Source of the DNA: Alphaproteobacteria bacterium
GTDB lineage: Bacteria; Pseudomonadota; Alphaproteobacteria; Kiloniellales; DSM-21159
Length of the DNA: 64,000 nt
Direction: 5' to 3'
Assembly (NCBI GenBank): GCA_030433005.1
Contig: JAUILQ010000006.1
Span: 1 to 64,000 of the forward strand
Of this stretch, positions 20,226 through 23,387 are shown one piece after another. A program made the translations under genes and the position numbers. Positions within the stretch are counted from its first letter, which is position 1. Every line of letters starts with the position of its first letter. The notes beneath the pieces were generated by a model that did not search any database, had not been told where the DNA came from, and saw only the letters and a program-made list of their open reading frames with translations.

Positions 20226-21650
20226 TCAGACCACCCGGACGTTCCTGAACTGCCAGGGGTCGTCGCGGTCGATGTCCTCCTCGAACAGCGTCTCGCGGCG
20301 GTCGAGCGGCGTCCAGTCGCCGTACTCGCCGACCACCGGGCCGAGGTAGGGCCGGCAGATCTCGAGGATCCGCTCGTGGTCCATCTCCTCGGGCTCGACG
20401 AGGCCGCGGTTCGGGTTCTCGCAGGCCCAGATCAGGCCGGCGAGCACCGGGATCGTGACCTGCAGCGAGGTCGCGTTGTTGTGCGGCGCCAGCAGCCGCG
20501 CCTCGTCGACCGACAGCCGCGAGCCATACCAGTAGGCGTTCCTGGCGTGACCGCAGAGCAGCACGCCGAGCTCGTCGATGCCGCCCGGCTGCACCTCGTC
20601 GACGATCAGGCGCCTGCTCTCCTGAAGCTCCCACTGGCGCCCGGAGAGCTCGTGCACCGACAGCACCGCCGCGTCGCAGGGGTGGTAGGCGTAGTGCACG
20701 GTCGGCCGGTAGGTCGCCTTTTCGCCCTCCTTGACCGTGAGGTAGTCGGCCAGCGAGATCGACTCGTTGTGGGTGATCAGGAAGCCGTTGATCGGGCCGG
20801 CCAGCGGCGTCCAGGTGCGCACCCGCGTCGAGGCGCCCGGACGCAGCAGGTAGATCGCCGCGTCCGAGCCGCTCTCGTGGCGCCGGCCGTCGGCCGGCAG
20901 CGCCTTCTCGTGGGTGCCCCAGCCGAGCTCGGCCGGCTGGCAGCCCTCTGAGAAGAAGCCGTCGACCGACCAGGTGTTGACGAACTCGCCCGGGCGCTTC
21001 GGCGTCGTCGGCACCTGCGTGTCGCGCTCGGCGATATGGATGACCTTGACGCCGAGCCGCTGCGCGAGCCCTGCCCAGCCGGCACGGTCGCCGGGGGTCG
21101 CCGTCTCGACGCCGGTGTCGCGCGCGATGTCGAGCAGCGCCTGCTTGACGAAGTGGCTGACCAGCCCGGGATTGGCGCCGTGGGTCAGCACGCAGGTCGG
21201 CGCGTCCGCCCCGAGCTCCCGGCCGGCCGCCAGGGCCTGCTCGCGCAGCGCGTAGTTGGTCCGCTGGTCCGCCGGCACCGAGGCGTCGATGTAGCCGCCG
21301 GGCCAGGGCTCGATGCAGGTGTCGAGATACTTCGCGCCGTTCTTCGCCGCCAGCGTGAACAGCGCGGTCGAGAGCACGTCGACCGACAGGTTGAGCAGGA
21401 AGTCGCCGGGTCCGAGCAGCGGCGTCAGCTCGGCCTCGTAGTTCTGCTTCGTCAGCTCGACCTTGCGCAGCTCGACACCGTACTCGCGCGCCACCGCGGC
21501 GCCGGAATCGTCGGCCGAGAGGATCTGGATCTGGTCCGGCCGGATCTCCAGGTGACGCAGGATCAGCGGCAGCACGCCCTGGCCGATCGAACCGAAGCCG
21601 ATCATCACGAGACGATGCTTGAAGGCGAGATACTTCGTCGGCTCGGCCAT
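20226..21650 (-). CDS. hss: Homospermidine synthase
   Basis: 474 residues, matching bacterial homospermidine synthases. It begins with a Rossmann fold (RLVMIGFGSIGQGVLPLILRHL) and has the family segments LLNLSVDVLSTALFTLAAKNGAKYLDT and NPGLVSHFVKQALLDIA. It makes homospermidine from putrescine with NAD in the cytoplasm, the typical triamine of many alphaproteobacteria. AAGGAG precedes the ATG. It is divergent from the ornithine decarboxylase that supplies putrescine. Confidence 0.94.
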   Translation of the reverse strand: MAEPTKYLAFKHRLVMIGFGSIGQGVLPLILRHLEIRPDQIQILSADDSGAAVAREYGVELRKVELTKQNYEAELTPLLGPGDFLLNLSVDVLSTALFTLAAKNGAKYLDTCIEPWPGGYIDASVPADQRTNYALREQALAAGRELGADAPTCVLTHGANPGLVSHFVKQALLDIARDTGVETATPGDRAGWAGLAQRLGVKVIHIAERDTQVPTTPKRPGEFVNTWSVDGFFSEGCQPAELGWGTHEKALPADGRRHESGSDAAIYLLRPGASTRVRTWTPLAGPINGFLITHNESISLADYLTVKEGEKATYRPTVHYAYHPCDAAVLSVHELSGRQWELQESRRLIVDEVQPGGIDELGVLLCGHARNAYWYGSRLSVDEARLLAPHNNATSLQVTIPVLAGLIWACENPNRGLVEPEEMDHERILEICRPYLGPVVGEYGDWTPLDRRETLFEEDIDRDDPWQFRNVRVV

Positions 21651-22020
21651 CGGCGATGACTCCTTGCGGTCTGGTTCGAAGGTCGGCAGCCTGCCGCGCA
21701 GCGAGGCAGCGGCGCTTGCACCCGGGGGCGCTTAAAGAAAACGACCGGGGGGCGCAACCCGCAATGGCGCGCCGCTCGGCCGGGTTTCGCCCAAGAAGGC
21801 CTTAATCGGCCAGGGATTTTCCCGAGGCGCCGCCACGATTTTTTCACTTGCGCGGCGGGGCGAAACCTCCATATTTCGCGGCGACGCAAACGCGCACGTG
21901 CCTCTGGTCGTCCCCGTACGGCCACGCAACGACGTCCCAGCGGATCTCGTTGATTTGGCCGCCGGCCCAAGCTCCCCGGGCGAAACGGATCGGGAAGCGA
22001 AGCCGGTACGGAGACGGTGC
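21651..22020. other. Divergent hss/ODC region and ODC leader start
   Basis: No long gene is supported. Toward ornithine decarboxylase there is an A/T-rich patch and a promoter-like pair, then about 145 nt of transcribed leader before the small ORF. An inverted repeat GGCCTTAATCGGCC lies near 21800. Long structured leaders precede ornithine decarboxylase genes of alphaproteobacteria (the speF RNA motif), and this region is a reasonable place for one. I could not match the motif position by position. Confidence 0.5.
21848..21875 (+). promoter_or_regulatory. Predicted promoter for the ODC leader
   Basis: TTGCGC, a 16-nt spacer and CATATT, following a TTTTTT run. It would start transcription about 375 nt before the decarboxylase start codon, leaving a long leader. 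Confidence 0.35.
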
Positions 22021-22161
22021 ATGACGACCCGGAAGCCCCTGGCGGCGCTGCCGCACTTCTTCTTTCTGGAAAGCCGCGACGCGACCTCGGCGCCCGTGCT
22101 GCGCTGGGACTACTGGCTGTTGCTCGGCAGGGACGTTCCCTCGAGCAGTATCGAGGGCTGA
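22021..22161 (+). CDS. Candidate 46-residue leader ORF upstream of ornithine decarboxylase
   Basis: Begins MTTRKPLAALPHFFFLESR and ends IEG. GGAG lies about 8 nt before the ATG, and the stop is 95 nt before the decarboxylase start. The longer ORF in the track starts further upstream and has no better ribosome site. Its aromatic PHFFF run and Arg-rich N-terminus recall leader peptides that stall ribosomes in response to a polyamine precursor, for example SpeFL of enterobacteria, but no alignment was made. It may also be chance coding capacity in a structured leader RNA. Confidence 0.4.
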   Translation: MTTRKPLAALPHFFFLESRDATSAPVLRWDYWLLLGRDVPSSSIEG

Positions 22162-22207
22162 AGGCCCCCTCGACGACCGACCCCGCTCGACAGCTCAGTT
22201 CCCATCA

Positions 22208-22229
22208 GGGAGTCTGTGACCGGACTCCC
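22208..22229 (+). promoter_or_regulatory. Hairpin just before ornithine decarboxylase
   Basis: GGGAGTC and GACTCCC form a 7-bp stem with an 8-nt loop, followed by GGCCCC and the ribosome site AAGGAGGCCCC, which could itself pair. No T-run is present, so control of initiation is more plausible than intrinsic termination. Confidence 0.4.
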
Positions 22230-22256
22230 GCCGGCCCCATGAAGGAGGCCCCGCCG

Positions 22257-23387
22257 ATGACTCCGAAGATCGCCCGCTTTCTCGCCGAGCAGCAGCCGCT
22301 GACCCCCTGCCTGGTCCTCGACCTCGACGTCGTCGAGGAGCGCTATCGCGCGCTCGCCGGCGCGCTGCCCTCGGCCTCGATCTACTACGCCGTCAAGGCC
22401 AACCCGGCGCCCGAGATCCTGGCGCTGCTGGAGCGCCTCGGCTCCTGCTTCGACTGCGCCTCGGCGCAGGAGATCCGCATGGTCATGGCGACCGGCGCCG
22501 GCGCCGAGCGCATCTCCTTCGGCAACACCATCAAGAAGCAGTCGGACATCGCCTGGGCGCATTCCGAGGGCGTCGACCTCTACGCCTTCGACAGCGAGGC
22601 CGAGCTGGAGAAGCTGGCCGAGTCCGCGCCCGGCGCCCGGGTGTTCTGCCGCATCCTGGTCGAGACCCAGGGCGCCGAGTGGCCGCTGTCGAAGAAGTTC
22701 GGCTGCGCGCCCGAGATGGCGTCGGACCTGCTGGTCAAGGCGCGCGAGCGCGGGCTCCAGCCCTACGGCGTGTCGTTCCACGTCGGCTCGCAGCAGACCG
22801 ACACCGAGCAGTGGGACATCGCGATCGGCGCGGCGAAGATGGTTTTCGCGGACCTGCAGGAGGCCGGCATCGAGCTGAAGCTGGTCAACCTGGGCGGCGG
22901 CTTCCCGACGCGCTACCGCGAGGAGATCGGCGGCATCGACGGCTACGGCGCGCGCATCACCGAGGCGCTGGTCCGCCACTTCGGCAACCACATGCCGGCG
23001 ACGATCATCGAGCCGGGCCGCTACATGGTCGGCGAGGCCGGCGTCATCGAGGCCGAGGTCGTGCTCGTCTCGCGCAAGTCCTACGACGAGGACAAGCGCT
23101 GGATCTATCTGGACATCGGCCGCTTCTCGGGTCTCGCCGAGACCGAGGGCGAGGCGATCCGCTACCCGATCCTGACGCCGCGCGACGGCGGCGCCACGGG
23201 ACCGGTGGTGCTGGCCGGGCCGAGCTGCGATTCGGCCGACATCCTCTACGACCGCTCTGGCTACGAGTTGCCGCTCGAACTCAAGGTCGGCGACCGCGTG
23301 CGGCTGCTTTCGACGGGGGCCTACACCACCACCTACGCCTCTGTCGGCTTCAACGGCTTTCCGCCGCTGGCCAGCTACTGCATCTGA
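22257..23387 (+). CDS. Ornithine decarboxylase (fold III, PLP-dependent)
   Basis: 376 residues from the ATG at 22257, preceded by AAGGAGG; longer track starts reach into the leader. The PLP lysine is in YYAVKANPAPEIL, with the later motifs SFHVGSQ, NLGGGFP, EPGRYMVGEAG and the active-site Cys in LAGPSCDSADILYD. It decarboxylates ornithine to putrescine, feeding homospermidine synthase across the divergent region. Lysine decarboxylase activity is common in this family and cannot be excluded. Confidence 0.93.
   Translation: MTPKIARFLAEQQPLTPCLVLDLDVVEERYRALAGALPSASIYYAVKANPAPEILALLERLGSCFDCASAQEIRMVMATGAGAERISFGNTIKKQSDIAWAHSEGVDLYAFDSEAELEKLAESAPGARVFCRILVETQGAEWPLSKKFGCAPEMASDLLVKARERGLQPYGVSFHVGSQQTDTEQWDIAIGAAKMVFADLQEAGIELKLVNLGGGFPTRYREEIGGIDGYGARITEALVRHFGNHMPATIIEPGRYMVGEAGVIEAEVVLVSRKSYDEDKRWIYLDIGRFSGLAETEGEAIRYPILTPRDGGATGPVVLAGPSCDSADILYDRSGYELPLELKVGDRVRLLSTGAYTTTYASVGFNGFPPLASYCI

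Follow-up and report, generated by a model that had tools for sequence, protein, structure and literature searches.

The ornithine decarboxylase locus and the layout of its leader

The window, by which we mean the whole 64,000-nt stretch of alphaproteobacterial DNA analysed here, contains a gene for ornithine decarboxylase (ODC) whose closest solved structures are lysine/ornithine decarboxylases and eukaryotic ODC (Table 1). Putrescine is the polyamine product of an ODC-type gene. The coding sequence starts at the ATG at 22257, preceded by the Shine-Dalgarno (SD) sequence GGAGG (22244-22248), and an alternative in-frame ATG lies at 22239. Divergent from ODC, on the reverse strand (20226-21650), is a gene for a 474-aa protein with a saccharopine-dehydrogenase fold, most likely homospermidine synthase; the two polyamine genes stand back to back with one intergenic region between them.

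The promoter was missed by a simple consensus scan. It agrees with the arrangement CTTGC-N16/17-TATAT that relatives show at the same place, about 20 nt upstream of the 5' element described below, and on the strength of this agreement its position was accepted, giving an expected transcription start near 21882 and an ODC leader of about 375 nt. A first-pass annotation of this DNA had described a leader of that length, holding a short open reading frame (ORF) with a good ribosome site, and we confirm both the ORF and the site. Within this upstream ORF (uORF), which encodes the 46-aa peptide MTTRKPLAALPHFFFLESRDATSAPVLRWDYWLLLGRDVPSSSIEG, a GCGGC-GCT-GCCGC hairpin (22042-22054) is followed by a pyrimidine stretch, and a hairpin soon after the start codon is also seen in other uORFs.

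Table 1. Features of the ODC leader and gene in the window
Feature	Position	Strand	Basis
Promoter: TTGCGC -35 (21848-21853), 16-nt spacer, CATATT -10 (21870-21875)	21848-21875	+	sequence; arrangement in relatives
5' structured element, ar45-speF type	21886-22002	+	R2 model match and alignment
GGAG, SD sequence of the leader ORF (7 nt to the ATG)	22010-22013	+	site corresponds to CUGAAGAGG / CCGAGAGGG in speF-type leaders
Leader ORF (uORF), 46 codons, ATG 22021 to TGA 22161	22021-22161	+	codon-level conservation with Tistlia consotensis
C-terminal codons AGC AGT ATC (Ser-Ser-Ile), AGT at 22147-22149 invariant	22144-22152	+	69/69 distinct uORFs; 19/19 representatives
Hairpin over uORF end and stop: TCGAGGG (22151-22157) / CCCTCGA (22167-22173)	22151-22173	+	folding
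Hairpin with a 9-bp stem and UGAC loop, ahead of the ODC ribosome site	22208-22229	+	folding; comparison with T. consotensis
Local hairpin GGCCCC...GGAGGCC over the ODC SD	22232-22249	+	fold prediction, window and T. consotensis
ODC, fold-III PLP ornithine/lysine-type decarboxylase, 376 aa	22257-23387	+	Pfam Orn_Arg_deC_N, 5.8e-57

The leader begins with a diverged ar45-speF element

The speF motif known from alphaproteobacterial ODC genes had been expected in this leader. The Rfam model for speF (RF00518, threshold 37 bits) gave no match up to E=1 in the interval 21000-22600, and that for ar45 (RF02347, threshold 40 bits) none in the window. In the relative L011, which belongs to the same family as the window, the same Rfam models score 40 bits for speF and 51.5 bits for ar45, and the two occur in tandem before ODC in the relatives L011, L006 and L007. 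A covariance model (R2) made from other alphaproteobacterial ODC leaders, with the Tistlia sequences left out, matches the window leader at 31.2 bits (E=5e-5 in 68 kb); this is the top match in its genome (E=0.004), and a second, weak match (C72, E=0.15) was dismissed because the invariant blocks are absent from it. Given the R2 match obtained without Tistlia and the ar45 and speF matches in the same leaders of relatives, the window leader is a diverged member of one family, treated in Rfam as the two entries ar45 and speF. The expectation of a speF motif thus held at the level of the family but not for the Rfam model itself. We define here a broader class of ar45-speF-type ODC leaders, to which the window leader belongs: it matches a covariance model made without Tistlia and precedes a fold-III ODC gene.

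In the window, the element consists of the invariant blocks GCACGTGCC (21894-21902) and GCAACGACG (21926-21934), followed by a GCCGGC...GCCGGT hairpin. We surveyed 121 ODC loci of the class Alphaproteobacteria, and in the leaders of 71 of them GCACGTGCC is followed, some 20-60 nt on, by GCAACGACG (or variants of these blocks). The exact pattern GCACGTGCCNNTGGN{5,35}GCAACGACG is present in 69/76 and 66/82 genomes of two orders, in a single copy in most genomes that have it, and its reversed control is found in 0 genomes of the two orders. Covariation is evident in the helix CCUUUUUGG / CCGAGAGGG, where five of the six pairs show changes on both sides (1.6 in shuffled data; 0/500 shuffles). The 3' strand of this helix is the SD sequence of the uORF, so that the helix covers the uORF's own ribosome site; this part of the element is poorly kept in the window. 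At its downstream end, ar45 has a G+C stem and then a U run, and this run pairs with the speF site as well (L011, 1130-1236, and its relatives); the ar45 RNA may be a product of attenuation, representing the 5' end of the ODC transcript.

The leader ORF is a coding sequence under selection

The only congener that we found was Tistlia consotensis USBA 355, whose leader ORF encodes MTTRKPRAALPHFFYLETRDATSAPALRWDYWQLLGRDVPSSSTRG, identical to the window peptide at 39 of 46 residues (85%). The first-pass annotation had proposed an alignment of the leader ORF across relatives for conserved codons, and in the Tistlia pair such conservation is found: nucleotide changes number 2, 7 and 14 at the three codon positions, and 13 changed codons are synonymous (35 sites) against 7 nonsynonymous (103 sites; Fisher p=5e-5). 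The flanks align poorly, with 47% identity over the 60 nt before the uORF and 44% over the 70 nt after it. Judged by this codon pattern, the leader ORF is a real coding sequence under protein-level selection, and it combines the coding constraint and the conservation of frame that generally mark a regulatory uORF. A peptide working beside the RNA motif had been raised as a second principle of control; with a real, conserved leader ORF lying within an RNA leader related to speF, both principles are present.

Similarity over the entire peptide is confined to the genus. Neither an HMM of the whole Tistlia peptide, run on 63 genomes belonging to the order, nor a GTDB pattern scan returned anything beyond Tistlia, and the uORFs match no family in Pfam or NCBIfam. 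The argument for a uORF across the class is accordingly drawn from its position, its reading frame and its C-terminus. The aromatic block noted in the first-pass annotation, PHFF[FY]LE[ST]R, is likewise kept within Tistlia only; what is shared across families is instead the C-terminus.

A shared C-terminal motif contains an invariant codon

In many families of the Alphaproteobacteria a uORF starts at the same place, directly after the SD sequence of the element. Of the 121 ODC loci surveyed, 34 carry a free-standing ORF here, about 30-59 codons long, and in 12 the ORF either continues in frame into ODC, extending its N-terminus, or overlaps the ODC start; 19 are speF-like without a recognised ORF, 50 are without a detectable element and 6 are unclassified. 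Mid-peptide sequences drift freely and lengths vary, and the part common across families is a C-terminal [ST]-S-[IMT..]. Within the last 10 residues, [ST]S[IMTQL] is present in 13 of 24 representative uORFs (mean of 0.7 and maximum of 4 in 2000 shuffles) and missing from the other 11, and [ST]S[IMT] is kept in frame in about ten families (counted by the numbering of families in the searched genome set). A longer form, GR[DEK][NV]P[LS]SS, is common to Tistlia and three other families, as in YWLLLGRDVPSSSIEG (Tistlia), YITLFGRENPLSSQR (L060), YGSLIGRKNPLSSICASC (L061), YLHLIGRKNPLSSMCSRQ (L108) and YGLLFGRKNPLSSMCRSR (L168). The window peptide ends in SSSIEG, with the codons listed in Table 1, and falls within what we define here as the SS(AGU) uORF class.

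Although amino acids and not codons were used to define the motif, its second serine is encoded by AGT in 69 of 69 distinct uORFs. In the ODC genes this codon makes up 0.6-3.5% of those for serine, and elsewhere in the uORFs 23 of 205; its presence in all 19 representatives has p=3e-16. The first motif residue is encoded by TCG, TCC, TCT, TCA, AGC, AGT or ACC, a range of TCN, AGY and ACC codons which means that this residue is kept at the level of the peptide. The frame is conserved too: in 26 leaders from one large genus-level clade, the distance from ATG to AGTAT takes seven lengths (85-124 nt), all in one phase, whereas the gap from the uORF stop to ODC takes all three, and 24 leaders of a second family show the same in-phase motif distance and drifting gap phase. 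The sequences CAGTAT and GAGTAT are absent from 19/19 speF-type leaders without a uORF. In a tree of 41 ODC proteins the SS-type uORFs are found in several distant lineages; they may have one origin.

The invariance of AGU could reflect a role at the RNA level. A small hairpin around AGUA was considered as its cause and rejected, since the PSSM and TSI variants break the hairpin, and frameshifting from the uORF into ODC was rejected because the gap between them occurs in all three phases.

Hairpins between the leader ORF and ODC

The end of the uORF is covered by a hairpin that also includes its stop codon. Comparison of the two Tistlia species shows two pairs of this hairpin changed on both sides in T. 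consotensis and one lost, at a cost of two amino acids (IE to TR), and in one clade covariation across 28 species is seen in a hairpin whose start is the uORF stop. Nearer to the ODC ribosome site, the GGGAGTC/GACTCCC hairpin pointed out in the first-pass annotation is part of a longer stem, GGGAGTCTG-TGAC-CGGACTCCC, with nine pairs including one G-U; T. consotensis keeps the UGAC loop and the 9-bp stem with changed pairs.

Whether the uORF end pairs with the ODC ribosome site depends on the lineage. Strong pairing with the ODC SD region is predicted in L060, L061, L168, L073 and L074 (z of about -3.5 to -4.3); it is no general feature, being weak or missing in many lineages, among them Tistlia. 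Folding of the Tistlia leader with a ribosome placed at the AGU codon or at the stop left the predicted accessibility of the ODC SD unchanged, at 0.20 in all cases. The gap after the uORF stop is C-rich and G-poor (mean C 0.37 and G 0.24; 0.44 and 0.26 in the window), which makes Rho-dependent attenuation a fair alternative to masking of the SD.

A possible mechanism and its alternatives

With a real uORF under coding selection, its C-terminal motif and AGU codon, a 5' RNA element and a hairpin over the uORF end in place, we lean on balance, by a little, towards reading the leader as a two-part regulator of ODC, in which an ar45-speF RNA is combined with a cis-acting uORF that would pause the ribosome at SS(AGU) and thereby set the fold downstream. 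The Ser-Ser(AGU) end shared by many alphaproteobacteria points to ribosome pausing as part of the control of ODC. Transcripts would begin with the structured RNA close to their start, followed by translation of the uORF at its fixed place; the C-terminal [ST]-Ser(AGU)-[Ile/Met/Thr..] would slow or arrest the ribosome a few codons before the stop, where it would cover the 5' arm of the hairpin at the last uORF codons and stop (22151-22173) and prevent that hairpin from forming. Depending on where the ribosome stands, the 80-110 nt before ODC could take up one fold or another, and the choice of fold could switch ODC translation, read-through past Rho, or both. The signal would most plausibly be ornithine or a polyamine. 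Several results speak against this reading: ribosome position made no difference to ODC SD accessibility in the folded Tistlia leader, pairing of the uORF end with the ODC SD is confined to some lineages, the helix over the uORF SD is poorly kept in the window, the SS-to-stop distance is not constant, 11 of 24 representatives lack the motif and 50 of 121 loci the element, and a role of AGU in the RNA would also account for its invariance. We infer the pausing at the motif, the fold switch with its direction, the effect on ODC output and the ligand. A more specific version of the two-part regulator, to which we give only tentative credence, holds that fold-III ODC genes of alphaproteobacteria are controlled by arrest peptides of a family not described before, responsive to ornithine or a polyamine and marked by [ST]-Ser(AGU)-[Ile/Met]; the codon as well as the amino acid would take part in the signal, and the ar45-speF RNA would gate translation of the uORF.

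Somewhat unlikely, in our judgement, is that the uORF merely supplies translation through the leader, keeping Rho off or opening structure, with the RNA acting as the sensor and the peptide sequence being unimportant. The composition of the gap after the stop would suit Rho, the peptide middles change freely in sequence and length, and the 5' element is better conserved than the peptide. However, an unimportant peptide would leave unexplained why [ST]S[IMT] is kept in frame at the peptide level with an invariant AGU across so many families, and why coding constraint is strong over the whole Tistlia peptide. The same constraint, seen as 85% identity within Tistlia, would fit a small trans-acting protein, for instance one that binds ODC, as would the fusion of the same start in frame to ODC in other lineages; yet across families only a few C-terminal residues are common and lengths range from about 30 to 59 aa, the peptides match no known family, and a fixed AGU codon is not expected of a protein acting in trans, all of which makes this improbable. 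Slightly less probable again is a purely RNA-based regulator, be it an orphan riboswitch or a trans-acting ar45 sRNA, with the ORF incidental. Both ar45 and speF are Rfam families expressed as RNAs in Sinorhizobium and Bartonella (PMC7717549), and 19/121 leaders are speF-like without a uORF, but conservation of codon and frame argues against an incidental ORF, and the speF RNA of Agrobacterium tumefaciens bound no metabolite in vitro (PMC1273637). Homology of the uORF peptide to SpeFL, the ornithine-sensing arrest peptide of gammaproteobacteria, is very improbable: it is suggested by the position upstream of an ornithine decarboxylase and by a superficial HFF likeness (PHFFFLESR against HFFNAR of SpeFL), whereas the two peptides do not align, the downstream enzyme belongs to a different fold class, and HFF lies mid-peptide, away from the stop, and is conserved only in Tistlia.

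Comparison with known systems

We found no earlier description of the ODC-leader uORF in the open-licence literature. The RNAs speF and ar45 have been treated as RNAs of unknown function (PMC1273637, PMC7717549, PMC12403871, PMC3766115), and in-line probing of the A. tumefaciens speF RNA alone showed no metabolite binding (PMC1273637). They resemble the window leader in having a fold-III ODC downstream and the same order of conserved blocks, and the combined element, for both parts of which relatives score in tandem, aligns with the window leader. They differ in that the window scores for neither Rfam model, that Rfam halves the element and describes no uORF, and that the site conserved in speF as ACUGAAGAGG is here the SD sequence of a translated uORF. 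The function of the speF leader has been unexplained since 2005, when pathway metabolites did not bind, as is that of ar45 just upstream; a conserved uORF starting at the speF-conserved site gives both a testable role, namely the gating of a leader peptide.

In gammaproteobacteria, SpeFL acts as an ornithine sensor (PMC8429421), and in Salmonella orf34-speF the uORF end is an anti-SD and a hairpin lies downstream of the stop, together controlling speF (PMC6386406), which is a precedent for the mechanism proposed above. Shared with this speF-potE system are a uORF in a long ornithine decarboxylase leader, structure at the uORF end, a hairpin downstream of the stop and, in part of the alphaproteobacterial lineages, anti-SD pairing. 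The window uORF nevertheless lacks the sequence similarity that would place it with SpeFL: it gave no alignment with SpeFL and no match among PDB sequences, where SpeFL is present. It also has no termination-type motif; 27 codons follow PHFFFLESR where an HFFNAR-type effector (its position being read from the SpeFL sequence) would stand directly before the stop, and uORFs differ in how far SS lies from the stop, unlike a termination-arrest peptide. The ODC is of another class, and the alphaproteobacterial uORF has its own SS(AGU) motif and associated 5' RNA element, so the likeness looks convergent. If the proposed regulator is real, bacteria would have brought ornithine decarboxylase under the control of a uORF a second time, apparently independently.

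Arrest peptides of the TnaC and Erm type are similarly short, cis-acting leader peptides with conserved C-terminal residues adjoining a hairpin; here arrest and ligand are putative, and the invariance of a codon is unusual, so that if true the motif would be an arrest-type motif that fixes a codon (AGU). The polyamine-responsive uORFs of eukaryotic AdoMetDC and ODC share the working idea of reading out a nascent chain for genes of polyamine synthesis, but have no sequence relation and another mechanism of initiation.

Other arrangements of the element

In several lineages the ORF that begins after this SD continues without a stop into the ODC frame (L005, L008, L059, L066, L083, L109, L141, L148, L157, L159), and since it then forms an N-terminal extension, the element would control ODC directly; evolution has alternated between fused and separate ORFs. 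In family f58, many genomes (L207, L209, L210, L217, L228, L200) carry a second copy of the element, which precedes another fold-III decarboxylase, 30% identical to the window ODC, and is followed by a very short uORF such as MLALHGRALRR. Among speF-type leaders without a recognised uORF, a GCGYCUCCANCGCGC-like hairpin is shared (L111, L127, L134, L150, L156, L158, L163), and its CUCC loop could mask the ODC ribosome site.
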